A stretch of DNA of 64,000 nucleotides, from positions 1 to 64,000 of the forward strand of contig JAIUOC010000013.1 in NCBI GenBank assembly GCA_020161265.1, read 5' to 3'. The position numbers were made by a program, and so were the translations under genes. Source of the stretch: Chloroflexota bacterium. Its GTDB lineage: Bacteria; Chloroflexota; Chloroflexia; Chloroflexales; Herpetosiphonaceae. Shown one piece after another: positions 2,634 through 54,823 of this stretch. The notes under the pieces were generated by a model. That model did no database searches. It was not told the DNA's origin and saw only the letters and a list, made by a program, of their open reading frames with translations. Positions within the stretch are counted from its first letter, which is position 1, and each line of letters starts with the position of its first letter.

Positions 2634-3466
2634 TTGATTCAAATGAAATGGCATTGATCGAGCAGATCGATCGTTGGGTTGAGCCGATGAACTGGCGACC
2701 CGATTACGCCACTTGGCGCGAAAAACGGATTTGGCAAGAGCGTTATCAAGCCGAACGCTTAGCATTAATTGAGCGTTTTGGCGGCGAGCTGGCTAACACG
2801 CGCATTCTAGAAATTAGCTGTGGTATGGGCGGCACGCTGGTGGCCTTGGCTCAAGCTGGTGCTCAGCCAGTCGCGACTGAATTCAACCGTGATTATTGCC
2901 AGATTAGCAAGCATCGCGCAGCTCGTTATGATCTCAATGTGCCAATTTTGAATGCGGTTGGCGAGGCTGTGCCGTTTGCCGATAATAGCTTCGATTTGGC
3001 AATTTGCTGGGATATTGTTGAGCATGTGCAAGATCCAGCGGCGATGTTGGCCGAGTTGCGGCGGGTGATTCGGCCTGGTGGTCGGGTATTGCTCACAATT
3101 ATCAACCGCTGGGCATGGCGCGACCCGCATTACCATATTCGTGGGATCAATTGGTTACCGCGCAGTATGGCTGATCGCTTGGTTGCCACACGGCTCAAAA
3201 CCAAACAAGCGATGGGCTTGCAAGATCGCCAGCGTTTGAGCGACATGCATTATTACACGATGAATCAATTTCGTGATTTGGCCCAGCAGTATGGCTTCAA
3301 GGTTGCCGATATGGAAGCTTTGGACATTCAGCATGGCAGCAAACGCCGCGCCCAAGGCCTCAAAGGCAAACTGCGCGATTTGGCCTATCGGCTTGGTTTA
3401 GGCTTGCCTGCTTATTATTTGTACCGCGATTGGGTCAAGGGAACCTACGAATTGGTGCTGTGGTAA
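2627..3466 (+). CDS. class I SAM methyltransferase
   Basis: Methyltransferase of about 279 residues with Rossmann motif I 'ILEISCGMGGT', a post-I acidic residue in 'ATEFNRDY', motif II/III 'SFDLAICWDIVEHV' and 'RPGGRVLLTI'. This is the Methyltransf_11 pattern. The substrate is unknown; it probably methylates a sugar or lipid intermediate of the surrounding cluster. I take the ATG at 2627, which overlaps the stop of the previous gene (ATGGTAG); an ATG at 2594 would add 11 residues. Its stop overlaps the next ATG (TAATG), so translation is probably coupled. Confidence 0.8.
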   Translation: MVVDSNEMALIEQIDRWVEPMNWRPDYATWREKRIWQERYQAERLALIERFGGELANTRILEISCGMGGTLVALAQAGAQPVATEFNRDYCQISKHRAARYDLNVPILNAVGEAVPFADNSFDLAICWDIVEHVQDPAAMLAELRRVIRPGGRVLLTIINRWAWRDPHYHIRGINWLPRSMADRLVATRLKTKQAMGLQDRQRLSDMHYYTMNQFRDLAQQYGFKVADMEALDIQHGSKRRAQGLKGKLRDLAYRLGLGLPAYYLYRDWVKGTYELVLW

Positions 3467-4578
3467 TGCATATTATTCACTACAATCTGACGACCACTAG
3501 CAAAGTCGGCGGAGTTGAAAGTTTTGTTTGGGAATTGGCGCAGCAGCAAGTTCGGCTCGGCCATCGGGTTACGATTGTTGGTGGCCAAGGCCCAATTCAA
3601 CGGCCAAATCAGGGCTTACGAGTGCTAAAATTCCCATTTATTGATCGGGCACGTTTGGCTTGGGGGCCATTACGTCGCGCTTATGCTTGGCGCAAATTGG
3701 CCGAACGCCTGTCGTTGCTGCCACGGGCTTGGCCAATTTTGAAAACTGCCGATTTGGTGCATATTCACAAACCGTATGATTTGGTCGTGGCTCCGTTGCT
3801 CAAACGGCATGGCATTCCCACGGTTTATCACGGCCATGGCGAAGATTTTTTTCGCGGCGATGTCCAGCTCATGCAGTCAGCCGCCGCGCTGCTTTCGTGC
3901 TCTAGCTACAATGCCCAAACCTTGCAGCAACATTATGGGCGCACGGCGAGCGTGGTCTATAACGGCGTTGATATCGAGCATTTTCGACCTTTGGCAGTAG
4001 ATCCAGCATTACGCCAAGCAATTGCTGGCGATGCCCAATGGTTATTGATGCATCCTGGGCGCATGATGCCTTGGAAGGGTCAGCGTGATGCAATTAGTGC
4101 ATTGAGTTTGCTCGATCATACCTATCATTTGGCCTTTTTGGGCGATGGCGAAACCTGCCAAGCCTTGACTGATTATGCCAAAAGTTTGGGTTTAACTGAG
4201 CGCGTGCATTTTCTGGGCACAATTGCTCACAGCGAATTGCCGCGCTATTTGGCCTGCGCCGATTTGGTGCTTGGTACAAGTTACACATCTGAGACGTTTG
4301 GCATGGCCTTAGCTGAGGCTCAAGCTTGTGGCCGCCCCGTTATCGCCTCGTCGTGGCGCGGTTATGATGATGTGGTGCAAGCTGGCAGCACTGGCGAACG
4401 CTTTATCGCCCAAGATTCAGCCGATTTAGCTCGCGTTATTAGCCAACTTTGCAATGATTCAGCCTATCGTGAGCAACTAGCGCGTGCTGGTCGCCAGCGG
4501 GTACAGCAATTGTTTCCATGGTCGGCAGTCGCCGAGCGGGTTGAAGTGGTGTATCAGAACATAGAACATAGAGCATAG
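3466..4578 (+). CDS. GT4 glycosyltransferase
   Basis: GT-B glycosyltransferase of about 370 residues. The N-terminal domain starts 'MHIIHYNLTTTSKVGGVES' with the GG loop after beta-1. The C-terminal nucleotide-sugar domain holds 'HPGRMMPWKGQRDAI' and the EX7E-type segment 'SETFGMALAEAQACGRPVI'. It probably adds a hexose to a lipid-linked or surface glycan. The start at 3466 is set by TAATG overlap with the methyltransferase. Oddly, the last codons (tail NIEHRA, then stop) are written in a gaacatagaacatagagcat repeat array that continues into the spacer, so the native 3' end may have been replaced. Confidence 0.88.
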   Translation: MHIIHYNLTTTSKVGGVESFVWELAQQQVRLGHRVTIVGGQGPIQRPNQGLRVLKFPFIDRARLAWGPLRRAYAWRKLAERLSLLPRAWPILKTADLVHIHKPYDLVVAPLLKRHGIPTVYHGHGEDFFRGDVQLMQSAAALLSCSSYNAQTLQQHYGRTASVVYNGVDIEHFRPLAVDPALRQAIAGDAQWLLMHPGRMMPWKGQRDAISALSLLDHTYHLAFLGDGETCQALTDYAKSLGLTERVHFLGTIAHSELPRYLACADLVLGTSYTSETFGMALAEAQACGRPVIASSWRGYDDVVQAGSTGERFIAQDSADLARVISQLCNDSAYREQLARAGRQRVQQLFPWSAVAERVEVVYQNIEHRA

Positions 4579-4692
4579 AGCATATTATTTTAGGGTTAGG
4601 AATGGCTTTCTGGTCAACAGCAGCAAAATTCGTGCTCTTCGTAGTTTTGGATTTTGTTATCCCAATAACCGATCCCCAACAACCGATCCCTA
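4557..4692 (+). repeat. zeta/alpha repeat spacer, copy A
   Basis: The spacer begins, inside the preceding CDS, with tandem 7-8-mers of the form gaacata/gagcata (4557-4583, 'zeta' family). It ends with accgatccc-type units (4664-4692, 'alpha' family). In between lies a stretch with a short tcgtgctcttcgtag block ('gamma' family). The same zeta-then-alpha order is found at 6149-6295, so two similar spacers flank the DUF2079 gene as direct repeats. Confidence 0.8.
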
Positions 4693-4709: not shown

Positions 4710-6146
4710 ATGCAACGATTTTTTGCAACGATCGATACATATGCCAAGGCGCTGCTCACAACGATGATTGTGGGCTATATCGGGGTTTTCGCCACCTTGT
4801 CGTGCCTAAAATTGGCATGGTTTCGCCAAGGCTTCGATATGGCGGGCAACGAGCAAACGATTTGGAATACTTTGCATGGGCGGCCATTCCAAATTTCGGT
4901 GTTTGCCATGATGCGCTACGATTTTGATGATGGCCCTGTGTTATTGCAATTGCCATTAGCATTATTGTATGGCATATATCAATCGCCCTATACGCTGCTT
5001 GTGTTGCAAACAATCGCCTTGGGGATTGCAGCTTGGCCTTTATATTTGATCGTGCGTGATCTTTTACCAAAGCCATGGCATGCTTTGGTAATTGCTGCCA
5101 TTTATTTATTACATCCCACAACTCAGCATATCAATATGTACGAGTTTCAATTGCGCTCATTTATGATTCCATTTGCCTTGGCAGCGTTATTATATTTGCG
5201 CCGTGAACGTTTAGGATTGTATTGTTTATTTCTGTTTTTGATGATGTGCACCAAAACTGAGGCTGGTTTTACGTTAATTGCCTTTGGTTTATATGCAGCT
5301 TGGCAGCGCAAGCCTTGGAAATTTACTGCATTTCCTTTGGTGCTGGGGCCAGCCTGGGTTGCGATAGCTTTGGGCGTAATCGTGCCAGCCTTCAGCGAGG
5401 GTAATTTTATTGCTGATATTTACAGTTATGGCAGGCTTGGCAAAACTGTTGGCGATGTGATCACAACCATGCTCACCAACCCAGCCCTTGCTTTTAGCGT
5501 CATGACCGAACCACCCAAACTCAAATACTTGTGGCAATTGTTTGGGCTTGGTGGTTTTTTGGCCTTGCTCAGCCCAACCTTGCTGTTGGCTTTACCAGTT
5601 TTGGCGCTTAACCTCATCTCGCCCAATGCAGTCCAATTCAGCCTGAATTATCAATATGGCTCGTTAGTTTATCCATTTTTGCTTGTGGCCTCGGTCGAAG
5701 GTTTGCTGAATCTCACCCGCTGGACAGTGCGCAACCCGCAATCGCATGAACGGGCAGTACATGGCGCGGTGCTGGTTTTATTGCTGATTGGGATTATCGG
5801 GAATTTGACCTTGAATAATGTGGTGAAAACGGCGTTGAGCAACCGCGAAAACCCAACGCGGGTCGCTGATGCCCGATCAATTTTGGCTCAAGTGCCTGCT
5901 GATGCCGCCGTTGCCGCCAGCACCTTTCTGGCACCACACCTCGCCCAGCGCCAAGAAATCTACTTTTTCCCTGGCAACAAATCGTATCCCGCCGAATATA
6001 TTGAGCGAGCCGAGTATTTGGTGTTTGATCGGCGGCCACCAGGCAATAGCGCCGAAACTCGTGCTGCAATCGAGCGCTATTTGAACGACCCTGCGTGGGT
6101 GATTGTGGCCGAGGCTGGCGATTTTGCCTTATTGAAGCATCATTAA
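4710..6146 (+). CDS. DUF2079 family membrane protein
   Basis: A 478-residue polytopic membrane protein. The N-terminal segment 'FDMAGNEQTIWNTLHGRPF' matches the hallmark of DUF2079 (GFDLgnfdQaiWnt..G.PF), as does the later 'LLHPTTQHINMYEFQLRSF'. DUF2079 proteins have about ten membrane helices and are thought to be GT-C-like, though their biochemistry is uncharacterised. The C-terminal 130 residues after the last hydrophobic stretch form a soluble tail. The gene stands alone between two similar repeat-filled spacers (4557-4692 and 6149-6295), as if it were a cassette in the glycan cluster. Confidence 0.85.
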   Translation: MQRFFATIDTYAKALLTTMIVGYIGVFATLSCLKLAWFRQGFDMAGNEQTIWNTLHGRPFQISVFAMMRYDFDDGPVLLQLPLALLYGIYQSPYTLLVLQTIALGIAAWPLYLIVRDLLPKPWHALVIAAIYLLHPTTQHINMYEFQLRSFMIPFALAALLYLRRERLGLYCLFLFLMMCTKTEAGFTLIAFGLYAAWQRKPWKFTAFPLVLGPAWVAIALGVIVPAFSEGNFIADIYSYGRLGKTVGDVITTMLTNPALAFSVMTEPPKLKYLWQLFGLGGFLALLSPTLLLALPVLALNLISPNAVQFSLNYQYGSLVYPFLLVASVEGLLNLTRWTVRNPQSHERAVHGAVLVLLLIGIIGNLTLNNVVKTALSNRENPTRVADARSILAQVPADAAVAASTFLAPHLAQRQEIYFFPGNKSYPAEYIERAEYLVFDRRPPGNSAETRAAIERYLNDPAWVIVAEAGDFALLKHH

Positions 6147-6148
6147 GA

Positions 6149-6295
6149 ACATAGAACATAGAGCATAGAACATAAGAAAACCATGAATCGGGGAAAGCTA
6201 TGGACTGATGGCAGGTGGAAGTTGGTTGTTTGGGACAACTATTTGAGCCAGAACAACTAACCGATCCCTAACCCCTGAACCCCGATCCCTAAAAA
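6149..6295 (+). repeat. zeta/alpha repeat spacer, copy B
   Basis: gaacatagaacatagagcat units start 2 nt after the stop codon (6149-6178). Units of the type accgatccctaacccctga follow at 6259-6295. The roughly 80-nt middle is unlike that of copy A at 4557-4692, but order and orientation of the repeat families are the same. Confidence 0.8.
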
Positions 6296-21795: not shown

Positions 21796-21813
21796 GCGTC
21801 AAATCGTCAATTC

Positions 21814-21837
21814 AAAGGCACGCTTCGGCGTGTCTTT
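21814..21837 (+). terminator. terminator after ctaA
   Basis: ggcacgc-ttcg-gcgtgtc hairpin (one G-T pair, UUCG loop) followed by TTT, 19 nt after the ctaA stop. Confidence 0.7.
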
Positions 21838-21857
21838 GTGCATGTTGGAGCAGATGT

Positions 21858-30434: not shown

Positions 30435-31136
30435 TTATTTCAGCGCTTTGACCACTTCCACGCCATTGGCGGCCATGTGGTGCAACGAAAAAACATGATG
30501 GAAATCGCCAGGATGGGCATATAGGCCAAGTTCGCGGGCCACTTCTAGCGGCGTATCGTAGGTATCGACACATTGCGCGGGCAACACGACGCGGCGTTGT
30601 AGATTGCGGGCATTGGCATCAAGCCGCAAGAACATGGCCAATTGATACACACAGAGATCCGAGCAATCGCCAGTGATAATGTAGGTATCAACTTCGGGAT
30701 GCTCAGTCACCCACGCCGGAAAACCCGTGCTCAAAGCAGCGCTCAGCGAGTTCTTTTCAAAAATCGTGAAGCTATCGGCAAAGGACAAAGCCCGTAATTC
30801 TGGCGCAGTATCAGCCTCAGACGTACCACGCACACAGTGGACTGGAAACGCACCAAACTCGACCGCATCAACAGGATGCGAATCTTGAGGCAGGATGAAA
30901 TGGCGCACACCACCAGCATGAGCTGCTTTGAATAATTCGGCAATCGGCGCGACGATGCTTTGCACCCGTGGGCTAGCTAAAGCACCATCGGTGCAAAAAC
31001 CTACAATAATATCAACACAGGTCACCGCCACCCGATCAGCCCCATCGATCAATAAATCGTCGAGTGGCAATTCGGGCAAGTTGGCATACCAATCATCCAA
31101 ATATTCCAAAAATGCTTGGCTATTGTTCGCGAGCAT
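30435..31136 (-). CDS. isochorismatase-fold hydrolase, nicotinamidase-like
   Basis: A 233-residue cysteine hydrolase. The catalytic Asp is in 'TCVDIIVGFCTDGAL', Lys in 'TIFEKNSLSA', and Cys in 'ITGDCSDLCVYQLA'. Metal-type and substrate residues appear in 'LPQDSHPVDAVEFGAFPVHC'. The D-K-C triad and DSH motif match nicotinamidase (PncA), which turns nicotinamide into nicotinate, although the family also contains isochorismatases and other amidases. It is followed upstream (in transcription order) by NAD synthase and an NrtR-type regulator, which favours an NAD-salvage role. It ends in a strong terminator. Spacing to nadE is a repeat-filled 87 bp. Confidence 0.78.
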   Translation of the reverse strand: MLANNSQAFLEYLDDWYANLPELPLDDLLIDGADRVAVTCVDIIVGFCTDGALASPRVQSIVAPIAELFKAAHAGGVRHFILPQDSHPVDAVEFGAFPVHCVRGTSEADTAPELRALSFADSFTIFEKNSLSAALSTGFPAWVTEHPEVDTYIITGDCSDLCVYQLAMFLRLDANARNLQRRVVLPAQCVDTYDTPLEVARELGLYAHPGDFHHVFSLHHMAANGVEVVKALK

Positions 31137-31149
31137 AAAAACTCCTTGA

Positions 31150-31223
31150 AATTATGAAGTATGAGGGATGAATTATGAATGGGGATTTCGTTTTCATCCT
31201 TCATAATTCACCCTTCATAATTT
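31150..31223. repeat. epsilon inverted-repeat element C
   Basis: Left arm 31150-31179 is made of degenerate tandem units (aattatga, agtatga, gggatga). The right arm 31193-31223 is the reverse-complement version (ttcatcc, ttcataatt). The loop is about 13 nt. It fills nearly the whole spacer between nadE and the nicotinamidase-like gene. Confidence 0.85.
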
Positions 31224-33092
31224 CTAATAATCGACTGGCCGCAAGTAGTATTCGCCGATGGCAGTGCTTGAGAGCATGGCAGTGCTAGGCAAATGGCGTT
31301 TCCAGTGAGTCGAATTGACCCGCCGTTGAACAATTGCTACTTCATCGGGATTGAAACCACGCGCCACCAATTGCTCAGGTCGATAACCGCTCAACAAATA
31401 GGCCAACACCCGATCAGCCTTGCGATACGAGATGCCAAAATCATCTTCATCGGTTTGGCCAACCACCAAATCAGCCGAAGCTGGCTTATGCACAATCACA
31501 TCGGGTACGCCGATCGCCGAAGCCAATTCCCAAACTTGGGTCTTGAACAAGTCGCCCAAAGGATTGACTGGTGGAGCATCATCGGCATGCCACGTGTAAT
31601 AGCCAAATAAACGCTCGGTTTTGTTACCAGTGCCAATCGGAATACAACCGAGCTTTTGCGATTGATCAAACAGCACAATCATACGGGTGCGAGCCATCAC
31701 ATTGCCCCGCCGTCGGCCATCAGCATCTGGCTCAAAGCTCAAATAGCCTTCAACTGCGTTAGTAATTTCGATCGTGCGATGCTGAATGCCTAGATCGTCA
31801 ATCACCAACTGGGCATGATCTAGACTATCCGAGGATGAGGTGCGATAGGGCATACGCACGGCGAGCACATTTTCAGCGCCAAAGGCCTTGGCACATAAAT
31901 AGGTGGTTAGAGCCGAATCAACCCCGCCCGAAAGCCCAATCACAACTTGTTTAAAGCCACGCCGAAAGCCAACTTCATCGCGCAAAAACTCGACCAGCCA
32001 ATTAATCGTCAATTCAGGATTGATCCGTAGTGGCTCGTCGCTCTCAGGATCAAAGCGTGGCGCAGCAATAATTGGGAAGCTTTGCTTGCCAACTGTGGCT
32101 TTGGCCCGCTTTTCGCCCTCGCTATCGACGGTGCGTTGATACGAACTGGCATCGCTTAGGCCTTGCGAATCGCTAGAAAGCGCTGAATCCCACGTGCTTG
32201 GGCGATGTTGGCCCTCGCTGGCAGCATGCACATCGCGCAACATAAAGGGCAAACGTTCTTCCAAATCGGCCAACAACGGCAAATCAGCGCGGGCCAAGGT
32301 CAAATCGCTGAGATCAATATCGACCAAGATTACTGCTTCCGACCACAATGGAGCGCGGGCACGTTCATCGGAGCGTGGGCCAACCACAACTGAACCACCA
32401 GCAAAACCCTTGCCACCTTCAAAGCCGACAATTTGGCAAACTGCCAGATAGACCCCATGCTCGCCAGCAATCTCACGAATCCGATCATCCCAACGGGCGA
32501 GGTTGCTCGGACGATCTTCGTTGGCTCCACGGGCAGGCGAAGCACTGACGACGTAGAGCATTTGCGCCCCATCAAGCGCTGCGACCGTGCCGCTCAGCGA
32601 GTGCCATGCATCCTCGCAAATTAAGATTGCCACTCGCCCAAAACGCGTATCGAAGGCCGCAATTTGGCGGCCAGCCTCAACAAAACGCGCTTCATCAAAC
32701 ACGCCGTAGGTTGGCAAAAACATCTTGCGATGCACATGGCGAATGCCCGCCAAGCTGTGATCGCTGCCAAGCGTGGCATACAGAGCGCTATTGTAAAAAC
32801 GTTCGCGCCAACGTTCGTAAAAGCCAATCACAATATCGAGGGCTGGTGCATCGGCTCCGCGTGCCGCCAAATAGGTTTGTTGCAAATCGTGAAACAATTG
32901 GCCTGCGGTGACTGCCTGCTCACGCACACCACCCTCAAGGAAATAGCCAGTTAAGGCGGTTTCAGGCAACATCAGCACATCGGGCTGACGTTCGGCGGTG
33001 CCAAGTTGGGCGAAAATTTCACCAAGCCGCGCCAAATTAACGGCATAATGCCCTTTGCGTGGGCGAAATTGAGCTAAAGCTAAAGTGTACAT
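31224..33092 (-). CDS. nadE: glutamine-dependent NAD+ synthase
   Basis: About 622 residues in two domains. The N-terminal nitrilase-type glutaminase (about 1-290) has Glu in 'LMLPETALTGYF', Lys in 'VHRKMFLPTYG' and Cys in 'VAILICEDAWHS'. The C-terminal NAD synthase (about 350-622) has the ATP-pyrophosphatase loop 'VVIGLSGGVDSALTTY'. It amidates deamido-NAD using ammonia from glutamine, the last step of NAD synthesis. Between the domains is an unusually long polar Ser-rich linker (about 305-350). ATG 33092 is used; a GTG 6 nt upstream is also possible. It sits between the nicotinamidase-like gene and the NrtR-like regulator. Confidence 0.93.
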   Translation of the reverse strand: MYTLALAQFRPRKGHYAVNLARLGEIFAQLGTAERQPDVLMLPETALTGYFLEGGVREQAVTAGQLFHDLQQTYLAARGADAPALDIVIGFYERWRERFYNSALYATLGSDHSLAGIRHVHRKMFLPTYGVFDEARFVEAGRQIAAFDTRFGRVAILICEDAWHSLSGTVAALDGAQMLYVVSASPARGANEDRPSNLARWDDRIREIAGEHGVYLAVCQIVGFEGGKGFAGGSVVVGPRSDERARAPLWSEAVILVDIDLSDLTLARADLPLLADLEERLPFMLRDVHAASEGQHRPSTWDSALSSDSQGLSDASSYQRTVDSEGEKRAKATVGKQSFPIIAAPRFDPESDEPLRINPELTINWLVEFLRDEVGFRRGFKQVVIGLSGGVDSALTTYLCAKAFGAENVLAVRMPYRTSSSDSLDHAQLVIDDLGIQHRTIEITNAVEGYLSFEPDADGRRRGNVMARTRMIVLFDQSQKLGCIPIGTGNKTERLFGYYTWHADDAPPVNPLGDLFKTQVWELASAIGVPDVIVHKPASADLVVGQTDEDDFGISYRKADRVLAYLLSGYRPEQLVARGFNPDEVAIVQRRVNSTHWKRHLPSTAMLSSTAIGEYYLRPVDY

Positions 33093-33110
33093 AAACACCC
33101 CGTAGTATTA

Positions 33111-33342
33111 AGGATGAAGGATGAGGGTTGAAGGATGAATAACTTCTAAAAGAGTTTTTTGTTCATCCTTCTGTCGAGAAAATTAATAATCAATCGAACC
33201 TAACCCTTTTCGTTCATCCTTCGGGTAATCGATTATCTGTTACAAAGATCCAACTATGAACATTTTGGAGCAAGCCTTGATTTAAGGCTTAAGCGTCAAG
33301 CCTGAAAGATTTTTCATCCCTCATCCTTCATAATTTATCCTT
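33111..33342. repeat. epsilon inverted-repeat element D
   Basis: Left arm 33111-33139 (aggatga, aggatgagggttga) and right arm 33311-33342 (ttcatccctcatcc, ttcataattt) are inverted. Extra ttcatcctt units in the same direction as the right arm lie at 33162-33170 and 33212-33220. The rest of the 254-bp nadE-nrtR spacer, about 33225-33310, is AT-rich unique sequence with an inner aagccttgatttaaggctt hairpin (33273-33291). No promoter is obvious. Confidence 0.8.
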
Positions 33343-33346
33343 GTAT

Positions 33347-34069
33347 TTATTGTTCGTCCTTCTTTTTGGCTTCGCGGTAGCGAAACACAAAATCGCCCTC
33401 GATGCGTGAATCGCGGAAGCGGTAGAGGCGAGCTGGTCGGCCTCGGCTATTTAGCAATTTGCCAGTATCTTCAAGCAAATCGGAATCACGCAGTTTGCGA
33501 TAGAAATTGGCCTTATCGAGCTGCTCGCCCAAGATCTCTTCGTAAATCCGCTTGAGTTTGGGCAAGCTAAATTCCTTGGGTAGCAATTGAAAGGCCAAAG
33601 TGGTGTATTCCAGCTTCGAGCGCAAGCGATCAATTGCAAAGCGCAGAATCTTTTCATGATCGAAGGCCAAGTCCTTGGGCAGTTCATCGACTGGAAACCA
33701 ACAAACATCATTCGATTCGTCGGAAACTTGCAAAGCTTGCTCTTCGGTGCGAATTAAGGCAAAATAGGCCACGCTAATCACGCGGGTTCGTGGGTCGCGC
33801 CCAGGATCACCGAAGGTATACAGCTGCTCCATATACACATCGTGAACGCCCGTTTCTTCCTCCAACTCGCGCCGAGCAGCCATTTCCAACGATTCATCCA
33901 TGTTGACAAAGCCACCAGGAATAGCCCAATGTTCGGCGTAGGGCCAATGTTTGCGCTGCACCATCAGCACATGCAAACGGCCACTGCGCAAGCCAAATAT
34001 CACCACATCGACCGTTACAGAAGGCCGTTCATATTTTGTCGCATCGTAGTTTTCAGCAGTTTCTGTCAT
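33347..34069 (-). CDS. nrtR: NrtR-type Nudix/winged-helix regulator
   Basis: About 240 residues. The N-terminal Nudix domain (about 15-145) contains 'GLRSGRLHVLMVQRKHWPY' and the Nudix box between 'WAIPGGFVNMDESLEMAA' and 'RRELEEETGV'. The C-terminal domain has 'FSLPKLKRIYEEILGEQLDK', 'ANFYRKLRDSDLLEDTGK' and 'SRGRPARLYRFR', the signature of the NrtR winged helix. NrtR proteins repress NAD-synthesis genes and sense ADP-ribose or related nucleotides. ATG 34069 with taggagc upstream is chosen over an upstream frame. Adjacent nadE and a nicotinamidase-like gene are fitting targets, and a palindrome covers its own start site. Confidence 0.9.
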   Translation of the reverse strand: MTETAENYDATKYERPSVTVDVVIFGLRSGRLHVLMVQRKHWPYAEHWAIPGGFVNMDESLEMAARRELEEETGVHDVYMEQLYTFGDPGRDPRTRVISVAYFALIRTEEQALQVSDESNDVCWFPVDELPKDLAFDHEKILRFAIDRLRSKLEYTTLAFQLLPKEFSLPKLKRIYEEILGEQLDKANFYRKLRDSDLLEDTGKLLNSRGRPARLYRFRDSRIEGDFVFRYREAKKKDEQ

Positions 34070-34083
34070 AGCTGCTCCTAATA

Positions 34084-34098
34084 GTGTTATTATGACAC
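34084..34098. promoter_or_regulatory. putative NrtR operator
   Basis: GTGTTATTATGACAC is an imperfect palindrome, GTGTYAT-N-ATRACAC, placed just downstream of the -10 box and over the predicted start point of nrtR. This is the position expected for autorepression. I did not find a second copy before nadE or the nicotinamidase-like gene. Confidence 0.6.
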
Positions 34099-34100
34099 AA

Positions 34101-34129
34101 AGTATAAACATGAATTGAGCAGTTGTCAA
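34101..34129 (-). promoter_or_regulatory. nrtR promoter
   Basis: TTGACA (34124-34129), exactly 17-nt spacer, TATACT (34101-34106) on the minus strand: a near-consensus housekeeping promoter 32 nt before the nrtR start codon. Confidence 0.85.
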
Positions 34130-34140
34130 TAGGGAGTATT

Positions 34141-34338
34141 GAGGGCTAGGGGTCAGGATTCAGGGGCTAGGGGTCAGGGAATCAGAATCTCAGCTTATTG
34201 GCTGTAGGTTAGCCCTTCGCTCGCTCTGCGCCTCAGCGTTAACGTTTGATCCACGAAGAACACGAAGAACAAGGGGCTAGATAATTACTTTGTCCAATAA
34301 TGAGGCCTGATCCCTAACCTCTGATCCCTGATCCCTCG
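34141..34338. repeat. alpha inverted-repeat element E
   Basis: Left arm 34141-34192 holds gggctaggggtcagg units. Right arm 34307-34338 holds the inverse, ctgatccctaacc and ctgatccctgatccc. Between them sit a delta module (tctgcgcctcagcgttaa, 34225-34242) and a gamma module (gatccacgaagaacacgaag, 34248-34267). This explains most of the spacer between nrtR and the hpf promoter. Confidence 0.8.
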
Positions 34339-34363
34339 CTTTTACAATCGGATGTTGGTTCTA

Positions 34364-34392
34364 TTGCGTTCACCTCATGGGCATAGTACAAT
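34364..34392 (+). promoter_or_regulatory. hpf promoter
   Basis: TTGCGT (34364-34369), 17-nt spacer, TACAAT (34387-34392). A start near 34399 gives an unusually long 5' leader of about 310 nt before the hpf start codon. Confidence 0.65.
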
Positions 34393-34395
34393 ACT

Positions 34396-34677
34396 GGCAA
34401 CTGCTCCAAGTGAGCTACAGGACCAAGTGATCAACCGCCAAAAGGACGATCATCCAACCGGTAGCTAGCGAACAGATTGGGAACTACGTTTCGGCACCTC
34501 AGCTTGGCAACACTTGGATCGTGAACGTTTGACGGTAAAATCTCCTCGCCCTTTGGTTTGCAATGGGGCTTTGATGCGGGTTGAGGATTTATGCAAGATC
34601 GCAGCATCCAATTGAATAACGTTCCACTAGGAGCAGCCTATTGCCAGCTTCTTACCTTGCTTGGGTAGGAAGCTGGC
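34396..34677 (+). ncRNA. structured hpf leader with terminator-like hairpin
   Basis: Complementary segments suggest a folded RNA. A closing stem pairs 34396-34407 (ggcaactgctcc) with 34630-34645 with a 4-nt bulge. An arm pairs 34413-34418 with 34461-34466 and, inside it, 34428-34432 with 34448-34452. Another arm pairs 34538-34547 with 34583-34590, capped by 34548-34551 with 34566-34569. It ends in a 14-bp hairpin (34643-34656 with 34664-34677) followed by gtgtttt, 17 nt before the hpf ribosome site. The closing stem and this hairpin share 34643-34645, as in attenuators. No known riboswitch class was recognised. Confidence 0.45.
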
Positions 34678-34707
34678 GTGTTTTAGGTTTTTGTAAGGAG
34701 GCGTACC

Positions 34708-42617: not shown

Positions 42618-42633
42618 AACAACTCCGTAATTG

Positions 42634-42825
42634 AGAGCATAGAACAAAGAACATAGAACATAGGCTATGGATTATCGGAACAAGTAAGGCTGTTTCCAAA
42701 ATCCATGTACCAACAAAAACCTATAGCCTATAGCCAAAAGCCTATAGCCACCTTCATATCCTTCGTGATATTGTAATCCTCGCCTTCAGCTTCTATGCTC
42801 TATGCTCTATGCTCTATGTTCTTTA
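42634..42825. repeat. zeta inverted-repeat element F
   Basis: Left arm 42634-42663 (gagcatagaacaaagaacat...) and right arm 42791-42825 (ttctatgctctatgctctat...) are inverted copies of the zeta family. Between them lies an eta module with four or five agcctata/agccaaaa units (42720-42750). The right arm includes the TAA stop of the glycoside hydrolase gene. It occupies the whole spacer. Confidence 0.85.
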
Positions 42826-44811
42826 GGGATATTGCGCCCAACTTTGGTACAGTTGGCGACCAAGCAAGCCCAACTGAATTTCGTAGGAAGTTCCGGCTAG
42901 CTCAGGATGGTGCTCGAAGCGATTACGCTCGAAATATTGCACCAAAAAGCCCTTATTCTGCACTGGGTCGTATTCCCAAAAGGCCTCGCTCAACGGAAAG
43001 CCATAGATCGCGATTCCGCCGTTTTGCTCCCAATATTCTTTGAAGGGATAGCATAAACTATGGCCGGTTTCGACGAAATAGCTACATTCGGCAGGCGGAT
43101 TTTGGGCTGGCGGCAGGCCACGCCAATCAACGCCATTGCGTTCGAGTGAACGTACACCAAGCAGACTAAGTTGGACGCGAAATTCAGGTCGATTATTGGG
43201 AAACAACTCGAAGCGGTTGCGCTCAAAATATTGCACAATCGTGGGAATTCGCCCAGCACCAGGCTCAGTCAATTCGTCGGTCAAGGGCAAGCCAAAGCGA
43301 GCTAAGCCACCATTTTGCTCCCAATAGGTGCGGAAACCGCCGATAATCGAGTGTGGAGTTTCATCGAAAGTACGACCAGTGCGGCTATAACCACCATATT
43401 CAACCCAAATTGGCATACCCCGTTGATCAGGCTGGATTTTGACATTGCCAGTTTCGGTATTGATCACACGCAGTAAGGTTCCATCGTAGGCTCGCACTTG
43501 CACATGGCTACAATCGCAGTTAATTTCAAGGTAGGGCGGTGATTGAGCTTCGTGCAGCCACCACAAAATATCCACCGAGCGATCGCCGTTAGTCCAGTGT
43601 TGCCAGCCAAGCCCGCCATCGTAGGGCAAGGCATAATTGGCTTGCCAACTTAATCCGCCCAAATTATGGGTCAGGTGGTAGTAGGCGCTATAACTTGGCT
43701 TACGAATGCGTTGATCATCAAAATTTAAGGGGTAGGTACGCCGCAACAAACCAAAATGAAATTGATTTTCAGTTGGGTCGTTAATCGGGCGGGTGTAATT
43801 GCTGTTATCGCCAGTATCGTTGCGAAAATCATACCAGAAGATTTTTTCAATCCCAGGATGGGTCATGGCCAGCAGATAGAAGCGTTGGAGCCAAGCCGCC
43901 TGCTCATCTTCGCTGACAATCCCATCGCTTTCGGTAGACCAACCAACCTCGGTATACCAAATCGGCTTGTTGCCAAATTGCGCGAGCAGAGCATCGATTT
44001 CGGCAGCCTGTTCGCGGTAGGTTTGGTTACGATCGCGGCGCAGCACCGGTACTTCGGGTGCATCAGGGCGGTAGGGGTGCAAGCCCAAAATATCAAACAT
44101 CGGCCAAGCATCAAGCGCATACAAACGCTGGAGATAATCGGGAGTATCATAGGCAAATTCAGGAATTTCGCTCCAAATATCGGCCACCCCACCTAGCACA
44201 ATTTTGGCCTCAGGATCAGCCGCTCGAATTGCAGCACTGGCAGTTTGCAGCACTCGTACAAAATCTTCAACGTTGTAGAGGCCGCTTTCATAGCCCGATG
44301 GCACGAGATTCGGCTCGTTCCAAACTTCCCAATATTTGATCTGGCCGCGATCACGGCCATAACGAGCGACGGTGGCATATACATAATCACCCCAATCGCT
44401 GAGCCATTCTTCGGGGTGTGGGTTGCGGCCTTTGAACCAAGCAGGATTATAATCGAGCAAGCCCAAAATACTGATGCCAGCCTCAGCTTGCAACTGAATT
44501 GCCCGATCATAATTATAGAAGCGCGAACTATCGCCATCCCAACGAAAGGGACCATTTGGCTCAAACTGAACCTGATCCCACCAAATTTCTTCGCGGTTCC
44601 ACTGAACACCAGCTTCACGCATCAAGCGAATCATCGTCGGCATTTCATCGGAGCGCACGCGATTGCCCAGCGACACGACCATGCCAAATGGCGTTGATTT
44701 ATCACCCCATGGAATCTCGGCAGCAGCGGCGGGAGTAGCGGGGTTGGCTAGCAAAAACGGTGTGACGACGAGCACCAGCGCCAGCACCAGAGGGAGCAAG
44801 CGTTTGTGCAT
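42823..44811 (-). CDS. secreted glycoside hydrolase with FGYP modules
   Basis: A 662-residue exported protein. A signal peptide (1-31, ending 'PATPAAAA') precedes a TIM-barrel glycosidase domain (about 35-375) of clan GH-A: acid/base Glu in 'IKYWEVWNEPNLVP' (about residue 167) and nucleophile Glu in 'KPIWYTEVGWSTE'. This resembles GH39/GH5-type enzymes. A beta domain follows, then two C-terminal modules 'YWEQNGGLARFGLPLTDE ' and 'YWEQNGGIAIYGFPLSE', each ending 'QYFERNRFE', like those of the ELWxxDGT proteins. It probably cleaves extracellular polysaccharide, with the modules for binding. The stop codon lies in a repeat array. Confidence 0.85.
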   Translation of the reverse strand: MHKRLLPLVLALVLVVTPFLLANPATPAAAAEIPWGDKSTPFGMVVSLGNRVRSDEMPTMIRLMREAGVQWNREEIWWDQVQFEPNGPFRWDGDSSRFYNYDRAIQLQAEAGISILGLLDYNPAWFKGRNPHPEEWLSDWGDYVYATVARYGRDRGQIKYWEVWNEPNLVPSGYESGLYNVEDFVRVLQTASAAIRAADPEAKIVLGGVADIWSEIPEFAYDTPDYLQRLYALDAWPMFDILGLHPYRPDAPEVPVLRRDRNQTYREQAAEIDALLAQFGNKPIWYTEVGWSTESDGIVSEDEQAAWLQRFYLLAMTHPGIEKIFWYDFRNDTGDNSNYTRPINDPTENQFHFGLLRRTYPLNFDDQRIRKPSYSAYYHLTHNLGGLSWQANYALPYDGGLGWQHWTNGDRSVDILWWLHEAQSPPYLEINCDCSHVQVRAYDGTLLRVINTETGNVKIQPDQRGMPIWVEYGGYSRTGRTFDETPHSIIGGFRTYWEQNGGLARFGLPLTDELTEPGAGRIPTIVQYFERNRFELFPNNRPEFRVQLSLLGVRSLERNGVDWRGLPPAQNPPAECSYFVETGHSLCYPFKEYWEQNGGIAIYGFPLSEAFWEYDPVQNKGFLVQYFERNRFEHHPELAGTSYEIQLGLLGRQLYQSWAQYP

Positions 44812-44896
44812 TGCAGTTTATCCCTTGTACAATCCATTGTTCATCTCAACGTTGCGTAGTGTACCATGGTTGCTTCGCTTTGCTGCTGATAAAAAG

Positions 44897-45285
44897 CTGA
44901 AAACTTTAAGGGACTAGGGGCCAGGGATCGGGGATCGGGGAACAGAAAATGCCATGACAAAACAGAACGTAGTTTGGGCGGAGCAGAACAATCAAACAAA
45001 TCTGTGGAATCTGTGGCTAAAAACTTAACCTTCATGCTCTTTGTGGATCGATCGCTTAACGCAGAGGCGCAGAGAATCAAGGGATGAGGGATGAATTATG
45101 AGGGATGAAATTCCAACAGGATGAGCATGTGAGGTGTGTGGAATAGAGCAATAATCAAAATAATCTGTGCAATCTGTGGCTAAAAACTTAACCTTCGTGC
45201 TCTTCGCGTCCTTCGTGGTTTCATTCTTGGTGCGTTTTATAAATCAAAATCCTTTCGCCAAAAGCCCATAGCCTATAGCCATATT
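44897..45285. repeat. composite repeat spacer G (two beta cores)
   Basis: This non-coding stretch reads, in order: alpha units (ggggatcgggg, 44909-44940), a beta core (44942-45030), a gamma unit, a delta unit (cgcttaacgcagaggcgcag, 45053-45072), epsilon units (gggatgagggatgaattatg, 45081-45100), a second shorter beta core (45141-45192) with gamma (45193-45223), and eta units (agcctatagcc, 45270-45280). I see no gene. The 85 bp before it (44812-44896) precede the glycoside hydrolase start and show no clear promoter. Confidence 0.8.
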
Positions 45286-49494: not shown

Positions 49495-49640
49495 AATCGC
49501 TTAACGCAGAGGCGCAGAGAATAAAAGTGGCTATGGGCTATGGGCAATCGGTGATGCTTGGGAAAGATCAACCCTTGTTCCGATAGCCAACAGCCTATAG
49601 CCTTGTTCTTCGTGTAGCTTCGTGCCCTTCGTGGATCACA
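49495..49640. repeat. composite repeat spacer I
   Basis: Order: delta (cgcttaacgcagaggcgcag, 49498-49517), eta (ctatgggctatgggc, then gatagccaacagcctatagc, 49529-49602), gamma (cttcgtgtagcttcgtgccc, 49609-49628, and ttcgtggatca). It fills the spacer between the GyrB-like gene and the end of the FtsJ-type methyltransferase gene. Confidence 0.75.
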
Positions 49641-50706: not shown

Positions 50707-50722
50707 AAAAAAGTCCCCTTTG

Positions 50723-50854
50723 GAAGGATGAAGGATGAGGGATGAAGTATGAACGTTCAGCCTATCCCCCATTCAGGTATGGTTTATTGCAATGATCAAT
50801 TTACGAATTGGATAATTTCAGCCTTTCATCCCTCATAATTTATCCTTCATCCTT
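50723..50854. repeat. epsilon inverted-repeat element J
   Basis: Left arm 50723-50752 (gaaggatgaaggatgagggatgaa-type units) and right arm 50825-50854 (ttcatccctcataatttatc ...) are inverted and enclose about 72 nt of unique sequence. The right arm runs directly into the rlmN stop codon and the left arm ends next to the ribosome site of the methyltransferase gene. Confidence 0.85.
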
Positions 50855-51946
50855 CTAATACAGGTTTATCGGGCTGGTTGGCGATGGAATCGCGGCAAGT
50901 TGACCACAGGCGGCGGCGATTTCTACCCCGCGCTCCACTCGCACGGTGCACGAAATGCCTGCTGCTTGCACAACTCGTTGAAAAGCCGTAACCCGCTCAC
51001 GATGCGAACGCGTCAAGGGCGTTCCAGGGATAGGATTCCACGGAATTAAATTGACATGGCAGAGCATGCCCTTAACCAAATTGGCAAGTTGGGCTGCAAG
51101 TTCAGGCGTATCGTTTTTATCGTCGAGTAGCACATATTCAAATGAAACTCGCCGATGGGTTTTATCGGTGTAATAACGAATCGAATCCATCAAATCGCTG
51201 ATATCAAAGCGATCGTTGACGGGCATAAGTTCGCTGCGCAATTGATCGTTGGGAGCATGCAACGAAACCGCCAAATTGACCTGCAAGGCTTCATCGGCCA
51301 ATTGGCGAATGCCTTTGACCAAGCCCACGGTCGAAACGGTCATGTTGCGAGCGCCAAGATTAAAGCCCTGTTTATCGTTGAGCCGTTCGACCGCCGCCCA
51401 CCAACGCTCGTAGTTGGCAAATGGTTCGCCCATGCCCATAAACACCAAGTTGGTGATATGGTCGGGCACTGGCCCGCCATGGCGTTTGGCAATCGCAGCG
51501 CCTTCATTGCGCAGATAGCGCTCGAAATATAGCACCTGCTCCATAATCTCGCCGCTGGAGATATTGCGCAACAAGCCTAATTTGCCAGTTGCACAAAAGA
51601 CGCAGCCCATGGCACAACCCGCTTGGGTCGAAACACAAATCGTCGCCCGATCTGGCGGGTAGATCATCAGCACGGTTTCAATCACCGCATTGCCTGGACA
51701 ACGCCAAAGCACTTTGCGGGTTAAGCCATCATCGGTGGTTTGTTCGCGCACCAACTCAAGGTTGCCAATTTGCAAATTTGCTGCCAATTGCTCACGTAGC
51801 GCGGCGGGCAAATCGGTCATGGCGGCAAAATCGTTAGCTAATTTTTTATATAAATGGGCATAAATTTGCCGCGCCCGAAAGGCTGGTTGGCCTAATTCGG
51901 TTAATTGCGCGGTCAAGCCCTTCAAATCAAGATCGTAAATATTCAT
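50855..51946 (-). CDS. rlmN: 23S rRNA (A2503-C2)-methyltransferase RlmN
   Basis: About 363 residues of the radical-SAM RlmN/Cfr family. It has the cluster motif '[14 protein letters not shown]' (CxxxCxxC), '[13 protein letters not shown]', '[14 protein letters not shown]' and '[18 protein letters not shown]'. The methyl-carrying Cys lies in '[20 protein letters not shown]', with the second of the family Cys pair at its end. It methylates A2503 in 23S rRNA and some tRNAs, helping translational accuracy. ATG 51946 with gaggaactc upstream is preferred to a longer frame. It is the first gene before the repeat spacer, probably cotranscribed with the FtsJ-type gene. Confidence 0.96.
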
Positions 51947-52515
51947 GAGTTCCTCGTTTGTTACGCCCCATGATACCATCTTTCTTTATCGTGGGGATCG
52001 TCGTTGATCCACGGCACGAAGAACGAAACCACGAAGGACGCGAAGGCACGAAGGGTAAGTTTTTAGCCACAGATTCCACAGATTGTTTTGATTATGCTGC
52101 TCAACCTAATCCGCTTTCTGTTTTCCCATTGCATTTTCTGCCCCCTGAACCCTAGCCCCTAATTGTAATGGTTCATTGAGTTAACAACCAGTAGTCGTTC
52201 CCTCACCCCTAGCCCCCTCTCCCACTGCGGCGGGCGAGGGGAGCACGCCCAGAAGGGGGTTAGGGCATATTGGCCTTTGTTAATCCAATAAACCCTAACC
52301 TCTATGTTCTTTGCTCTTTGCTCTATGTTCTTATTTTCATCCCTCATCCCTCATCCTTCATCCTTTCCCCCGCTATATCGTATAATAGCGCTACGCCTAA
52401 TTTAACAATATTTCCCCATCTTGAAGCCTACGGCAGCCTGCTGGATGGAGCTTTCTTGGGCATGGCCAGCATTTGCCGGGCGTGCATTGTTGGCTTGATT
52501 CAAAGGAGTTGACCT
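51947..52515. repeat. composite repeat spacer K (inverted beta core)
   Basis: A 569-bp gene-free region. In reverse orientation it holds gamma (51990-52055), a full beta core (about 52056-52141) and alpha (ccctgaaccctagcccc, 52143-52159). Then come a theta unit (ctcacccctagccccctctc, 52203-52222), a zeta unit (tctatgttctttgctctttg, 52301-52320) and epsilon units (ttcatccctcatccctcatc, 52337-52356). The last 130 bp (52385-52515) include the ribosome site of the permease. A TATAAT at 52381-52386 is a possible -10, but no good -35 accompanies it. Confidence 0.75.
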
Positions 52516-54773: not shown

Positions 54774-54808
54774 TAAAAAAGCCCCTCTCCCAACAATTGG
54801 GAGAGGGG
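54774..54808 (-). terminator. terminator, theta-type hairpin
   Basis: A 12-bp perfect stem cccctctcccaa / ttgggagagggg (54782-54793 with 54797-54808), followed on the minus strand by CTTTTTT. It ends the signalling operon. The hairpin with its ggggtgaggg flank belongs to the 'ccctcacccc...cccctctccc' family also present at 52200. Confidence 0.85.
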
Positions 54809-54823
54809 TTGGGGTGAGGGATC

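Follow-up and report, generated by a model that had tools for sequence, protein, structure and literature searches.

Heptameric repeats between bacterial genes have been described before. Rehm et al. 2015 (PMC4692102) reported GGGAATC repeats in Xanthomonas and GGGGA(T/C)T repeats in Nostoc, and the Xanthomonas repeats form 70 to 75 convergent inverted pairs per genome. MacGregor 2015 (PMC4679880) described TAACTGA repeats in marine Beggiatoaceae, cyanobacteria, and Bacteroidetes. STRR and long simple sequence repeats, as relayed in these two papers, include the heptanucleotides of Calothrix and the repeats treated in Mrazek 2007. An excess of heptamers among the simple repeats of bacteria was noted in 2007 and has had no known mechanism.

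We analyzed a window of 64 kb, which is the first part of contig 13 (182 kb) in the 6.04-Mb genome of a Chloroflexota bacterium (G000, the source genome). Five relatives from the same genus (G001 to G005, with G001 as the sister) completed the comparison set. Arrays were surveyed in 2.18 Mb of the 6.04 Mb (36%). Five heptad families were set by hand as degenerate units, and the thresholds were likewise set by hand. The families were epsilon (KKATGAR, as in GGATGAA), zeta (AGARCAW, as in AGAACAT, with AGAGCAT units also), alpha (GGGRYYA, as in GGGATCA, with GGGGTCA and GGGGCTA units also), eta (GGCTNTN, as in GGCTATA on the purine-rich strand and CTATAGC on the other), and theta (ARAAGKC, as in AAAAGGC). 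Gene borders came from simple ORF-based calling, and a second, still simpler ORF caller was used for replication. Orthologous sites were picked via pairs in the source genome; spacers were compared at 27 loci in G001 and G003, and the window spacers were compared in all five relatives. A cross-phylum set was selected by a perfect 29-base GGATGAA (epsilon) array.

The arrays resemble the Xanthomonas and Nostoc repeats in being intergenic, genome-wide, and close to stop codons, with a preference for four units (PMC4692102). However, those repeats represent one G-quadruplex-capable family, whereas we found at least five families, and one of these (AGAACAT) has no G-tracts. Polarity across families, family switching at orthologous sites, and stop-codon capture occur here and were not found in PMC4692102. 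Like TAACTGA, our heptads are common to distant phyla, intergenic, near gene starts, and without a known mechanism, but the TAACTGA repeats are nearly all direct sets, with one inverted case, and were proposed to be translational signals (PMC4679880). As with the STRR and long simple sequence repeats, for which a seven-base unit is said to be favoured in large genomes, we found a period-7 excess, about four units per array, and an intergenic location. However, the summaries of that class describe direct repeats explained by slippage, and border polarity is not reported in them. REPINs and BIMEs with RAYT are also dispersed, inverted short modules with a fixed orientation that form intergenic hairpins. 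Here, in contrast, there are several degenerate heptad families and no REP-like palindrome. REPIN/RAYT activity was rejected because Y1_Tnp gave 0 matches in G002 and G005, the genomes with the most epsilon arrays. Bacterial MITEs are likewise intergenic and have inverted arms around an interior, but in our arrays there is no target duplication, neither the interior nor the ends are conserved, and the arms are independent.

Convergent pairs, the four-unit preference, and a gene-end location are already known for one G-rich Xanthomonas heptad (PMC4692102), and cross-phylum sharing is known for TAACTGA (PMC4679880). In the open-access full-text literature, we found no description of cross-family polarity, of a family switch that preserves the site, or of the capture of stop codons and protein tails. 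A literature search with the epsilon sequence and similar long strings returned nothing relevant.

The arrays of the window are listed in Table 1. A sequence-only reading of this DNA had proposed facing epsilon arms near 31150/31193, 33111/33311, and 50723/50825, a zeta pair at 42634/42791, and an alpha pair at 34141/34307, the last two with other modules inside. All five pairs are present, and the interior modules are an eta array in the zeta pair and, in the alpha pair, CACGAAGAA units. The reading was also right about contacts with genes. At 31224, 42823, and 50855, stop codons are touched or overlapped by a right arm. Left arms start a few bases beyond ribosome-binding sites.

Table 1. Heptad arrays in the 64-kb window
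Array	Position	Strand	Context
Zeta, solo	4554..4587	+	Holds stop codon of glycosyltransferase gene 3430-4578; protein end ...NIEHRA*
Zeta, solo	6142..6177	+	At stop codon of DUF2079 gene 4710-6146
Epsilon, left arm (GGATGAA/TTATGAA units)	31148..31185	+	Just upstream of ribosome site, isochorismatase-like gene 30435-31136(-)
Epsilon, right arm	31192..31223	-	Adjoins NAD synthase stop codon 31224-31226
Epsilon, left arm	33102..33142	+	Upstream of NAD synthase gene
Epsilon, right arm	33309..33343	-	3 nt from stop of NUDIX/NrtR gene 33347-34069(-)
Alpha, left arm (GGGGTCA/GGGGCTA units)	34143..34180	+	Divergent spacer
Alpha, right arm	34305..34339	-	Pairs with 34143..34180
Zeta, left arm (AGAACAT/AGAGCAT units)	42632..42665	+	Upstream of GNAT gene
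Eta (CTATAGC; purine-rich GGCTATA on minus)	42714..42750	-	Within zeta pair 42632-42826
Zeta, right arm	42788..42826	-	Overlaps stop codon 42823-42825 of glycosyl-hydrolase gene
Alpha	44907..44949	+	Composite spacer 44812-45285
Epsilon	45077..45112	+	Composite spacer 44812-45285
Eta	45255..45283	-	Right border of composite spacer 44812-45285
Eta, left arm	49528..49551	+	
Eta, right arm	49579..49605	-	
Epsilon, left arm	50719..50757	+	Upstream of THUMP/FtsJ methyltransferase gene
Epsilon, right arm	50823..50856	-	Reaches stop codon 50855-50857 of RlmN-like gene
Zeta	52293..52337	-	Right side of divergent spacer 51980-52515
Epsilon	52333..52371	-	Next to zeta array 52293..52337

The longer spacers also contain other repeats. 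Dispersed modules of period 8 to 9 (CACGAAGAA, AATCTGTGG, and GCAGAGGC) occupy window positions 34252-34271, 44990-45215, and 49590-49640, and one of the modules inside 44916-45250 has numerous matches in each of the six genus genomes. Distinct from all of these is an inverted element, CCCTCACCCCC...CCCCTCTCCC / GGGAGAGGGG...GGGGGTGAGGG, with its C-rich arm first, which is the polarity opposite to that of the heptad arrays. It was seen in orthologues of window 21796-21857, 42620-42822, and 34070-34707 (G001/G002/G003) and at window 52200 and 54782-54820. At the same spacer, some species have a copy and others are without it. This element is a better MITE candidate than the heptad arrays. In the G005 orthologue of window 31137-31223, the epsilon cassette plus 14 nt (tctaataatcgact), stop codon included, is tandemly duplicated. 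An Rfam scan of window 30000-53000 at gathering thresholds gave no matches.

The arrays are abundant and nonrandom. GGATGAA doublets with at most one mismatch occurred 168 + 190 times in the 6.04-Mb genome, against 0 for a reversed-pattern control. Scans with all five families found 295 arrays in the 2.18 Mb, 265 of them outside called genes. A reversed-sequence control gave almost no matches for four families, the exception being the loose alpha pattern at lax thresholds. Tandem periods were dominated by 7 and its multiple 14. There were 171 period-7 arrays in the 2.18 Mb, compared with at most 7 for each of periods 4, 5, 8, 10, 11, and 13, and 140 of the 171 had four or five units. Arrays have anywhere between 3 and more than 10 units, so tandem slippage is clearly also at work. 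The density of period-7 arrays in G000 was very uneven: C1 had 24 in 800 kb, C13 had 25 in 182 kb, and C6 had 57 in 400 kb. By sequence inspection, alpha appears capable of forming a G-quadruplex, zeta has no G-tract, and the remaining families have GG only. Because of zeta, G-quadruplex formation seems unlikely as the common cause and was rejected as such.

Whatever their family, purine-rich heptads point away from the gene borders and into the spacer. Opposite-strand arrays at most 300 bp apart in the 2.18 Mb were convergent in 59 cases and divergent in 1 when all families were counted, whereas 1000 strand shuffles gave a mean of 32.7 divergent pairs and a minimum of 18. Same-family neighbours within the same distance were convergent 42 times, divergent 0 times, and direct 14 times. 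These counts match the convergent pairs of the Xanthomonas type. The inverted pairing that the sequence-only reading had noticed is thus far in excess of chance, and its view that the layout is more than simple decay holds. The inverted orientation is not bound to a family and is obeyed equally between families. Among neighbours of different families in the source genome, the strand orders were ++ 25, -- 33, +- 24, and -+ 1, and some families are interleaved, for example zeta+ eps+ zeta- eps-. A family-free test, in which period-7 arrays were assigned a strand by their excess of G over C, gave convergent-to-divergent ratios of 21:1, 7:1, and 79:4. The polarity was replicated in G001 (25:0), in G002 to G005 (23:1), and in the 119 contigs of the cross-phylum set (45:1).

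What governs the layout is a polarity with respect to gene borders, a rule that the sequence-only reading missed. On the stop-codon side in the source genome, the purine-rich strand was sense in 70 arrays and antisense in 1. Upstream of starts it was antisense in 34 of 38 (34:4). With the second ORF caller, the stop-side ratios were 63:1 (source genome), 24:0, and 17:0, and 63:3 across phyla. Solo arrays, too, pointed away from the nearer gene border (32:12). Therefore, inverted pairs are what this rule most often produces.

Many arrays supply the stop codon of the gene that they border. The stop codon lay inside the stop-side array in 34 of 71 cases in the source genome and in 48 of 66 in the cross-phylum set. 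Since 7 leaves a remainder of 1 on division by 3, epsilon and zeta arrays offer a TGA or TAG codon in every reading frame. Therefore, unrelated proteins share the ends ...NIEHRA*/T* (zeta) and ...KDEG* (epsilon). On the cross-phylum contigs, ORFs that run into a GGATGAA array give about 20 unrelated proteins, drawn from several phyla, a KDEG* end. The C-terminus of one protein also differs between the sister species (...EESVLEV* in the source genome and ...EESLVEEQRA* in G001). Selection for stops in three frames was considered as a general cause of the polarity and was rejected, because alpha arrays and arrays after intact stops also conform. The sense strand of alpha is mostly without stop codons, yet alpha arrays at stop codons were sense 14:0. 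Therefore, stop selection is not the general cause.

The same sites are occupied by different families in different species. At the positions of 18 source-genome epsilon pairs with intact synteny, G001 had theta/theta at 15, theta/zeta at 1, and epsilon at 2. About 3% of spacers would be expected to hold a theta pair by chance (460 kb of G001 contained 9 such pairs, and the number of spacers was extrapolated). At the switched loci, G003 was like the source genome at 11 and like G001 at 4 to 5. Therefore, switches occurred on both branches, each towards the prevailing family of the genome. Whole-genome epsilon/theta matches were 334/99 in G000 and 76/246 in G001; mismatch limits differ between the two patterns, so only the ratios between genomes are to be compared. 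The loops of same-family orthologues matched across species, but those of different families at one site did not. Rewriting of the arms around a retained loop was rejected, as epsilon and theta loops at a shared site were not significantly alike (P = 0.18 for the source genome versus G001; G003 versus G001 gave a weak P = 0.018). The flanking genes fall into two clean clades, and markers within about 35 bp still track the species tree. No clean empty site was present among the aligned spacers, which came from few species. Synteny between G000 and G001 breaks at array-bearing spacers at 5 of 27 elements, plus C8:47252, in an uncontrolled count (G000 positions C6:25675, 30644, 232941, and 265668; C2:338877; and C8:47252-47405).

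The epsilon array is not confined to this genus. The perfect 29-base GGATGAA array was found in at least 119 stretches from many phyla, many of them MAGs. The phyla include Chloroflexota, Cyanobacteria, Acidobacteriota, Planctomycetota, Verrucomicrobiota, Pseudomonadota, Bacteroidota, Armatimonadota, Hydrogenedentes, Nitrospirae, Elusimicrobia, Zixibacteria, Ignavibacteriae, and others. Isolates carrying it include Belliella kenyensis, Hyella patelloides, Limnofasciculus baicalensis, Viridilinea mediisalina, and Thioalkalivibrio denitrificans. The usual form across phyla is two four-unit arms with 10 to 20 bases between them, placed against gene ends.

We tentatively prefer a reading to which we give slightly less than an even chance, in which arrays are laid from the gene borders towards the middle of the spacer by 3'-end extension at breaks and are not transposons. 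From the geometry of the arrays we infer the breaks, the extension, an enzyme, and the order of events. A break would occur in a spacer, and spacers that form hairpins would be prone to breakage. Each of the two 3' ends would then gain about four purine-rich heptads. Extension might proceed by annealing to a dispersed array elsewhere and copying it, in a synthesis-dependent and microhomology-primed manner, or a repeat-adding polymerase might do it. The donor could be other arrays of the genome, with copying primed by a shared AAGG, and copying from other arrays would also explain the drift of a lineage towards its own commonest family. Both ends would then be joined with filler. Such a process would be expected to yield a convergent layout whatever the family, arms of the prevailing family that are similar in length without matching in detail, no target duplication, unrelated fillers, and replacement of whole spacers by the dominant family of the lineage. 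Sometimes the native stop codon would be lost and a new one captured from the array. However, a reverse transcriptase, the obvious repeat-adding enzyme, is absent from several carriers, and identical heptads across phyla still need horizontal seeding or a common cause. Slippage also operates, and the cassettes at one locus (see below) look exchanged between lineages and not built anew each time. Arm-templated copying (quasi-palindrome correction) was rejected, as the arms are no more alike than random.

A broader form of this idea is that purine-rich heptads, added to 3' ends at intergenic breaks, cap gene borders in many phyla with arrays of fixed polarity, as a widespread and undescribed bacterial form of end rebuilding, with lineages changing their prevailing heptad and rewriting spacers and C-termini. 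We regard this as doubtful at present.

The finished pair would probably be transcribed as an intercistronic hairpin, and an mRNA hairpin function is possible in addition to growth at ends. Such a hairpin might also be the whole explanation, if repeats grew by slippage under selection for transcript protection, polarity control, or a terminator-like role. The sequence-only reading had proposed long hairpins, and predicted folds are indeed strong at three loci (z = -5.3, -4.0, and -5.1). The outer arms are of the same family in 32 of 57 clusters, against 17.3 expected, copy number varies, and in operon spacers arms fill the distance from stop codon to ribosome site. However, polarity is equally strict between different families that pair poorly, and there is no fine covariation between arms. 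Elements had no preferred gene orientation beyond the spacer background (28 co-directional, 7 divergent, and 6 convergent, versus 545/207/126). Also, slippage cannot carry identical heptads to hundreds of sites. We consider it unlikely that selection for hairpins accounts for the arrays.

A family switch might instead be the exchange of old spacer alleles by homologous recombination through the flanking genes, with no rebuilding. The locus at 50.7 argues for this, because epsilon and theta loops are each common to two clades there while the flanking genes are strictly clade specific. This suggests that short recombination events, too, can swap cassettes. It is also consistent with G003 resembling the source genome or G001 depending on the locus. 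However, allele exchange does not explain the polarity or why two families independently came to occupy the same sites. Within each lineage the switch goes one way (nearly all theta in G001 and nearly all epsilon in the source genome), and markers close to the arrays keep the species tree. Allele exchange seems distinctly improbable to us.

The sequence-only reading had favoured MITE-like elements, that is, nested and decayed nonautonomous elements with terminal inverted repeats. Such elements would fit same-family inverted arms around a variable interior, hundreds of dispersed intergenic copies, and the coincidence of some synteny breaks with elements. However, the target duplications to be expected are absent: flank matching in 41 elements gave P = 0.23, and 6 of the 41 share at least 5 nt, versus 6.5 expected. 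Within an element, the order of units in the two epsilon arms agrees no better than it does with permuted partners (P = 0.64), some pairs are of mixed family, and copies share no interior. Interleaved families are not simply produced by nesting, the site in the sister species holds a different family with no remnant, and Y1 transposase is absent from the two richest genomes. The MITE-like claim did not survive these results, and we would be surprised if it were correct.

It is very improbable that a telomerase-like reverse transcriptase adds the heptads. Bacterial enzymes of this kind exist (compare DRT10 [PMC12632851]), and a UG37 reverse transcriptase of 786 amino acids is kept in all six genus genomes. 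However, G007 and G016 have UG37 too and are almost without epsilon arrays, G014 (224 epsilon matches) and carriers in other phyla are without UG37, and RVT_1 had no match in 6 of 10 carriers tested, a comparison limited by draft genomes. The UG37 gene lies at G000:C2:191985-194321 (RT_UG37 match in PADLOC, 1223 bits).

The evidence points away from an ordinary mobile element and towards a process by which gene borders are rebuilt. Array-bearing spacers are a possible source of synteny breaks, and through stop-codon capture unrelated proteins of many phyla can come to share one short C-terminal tail (KDEG or IEHRA/T). Near-absolute polarity across families and phyla, together with the replacement of whole spacers by another family at conserved sites, gives a vague class of repeats a direction and makes its origin testable.
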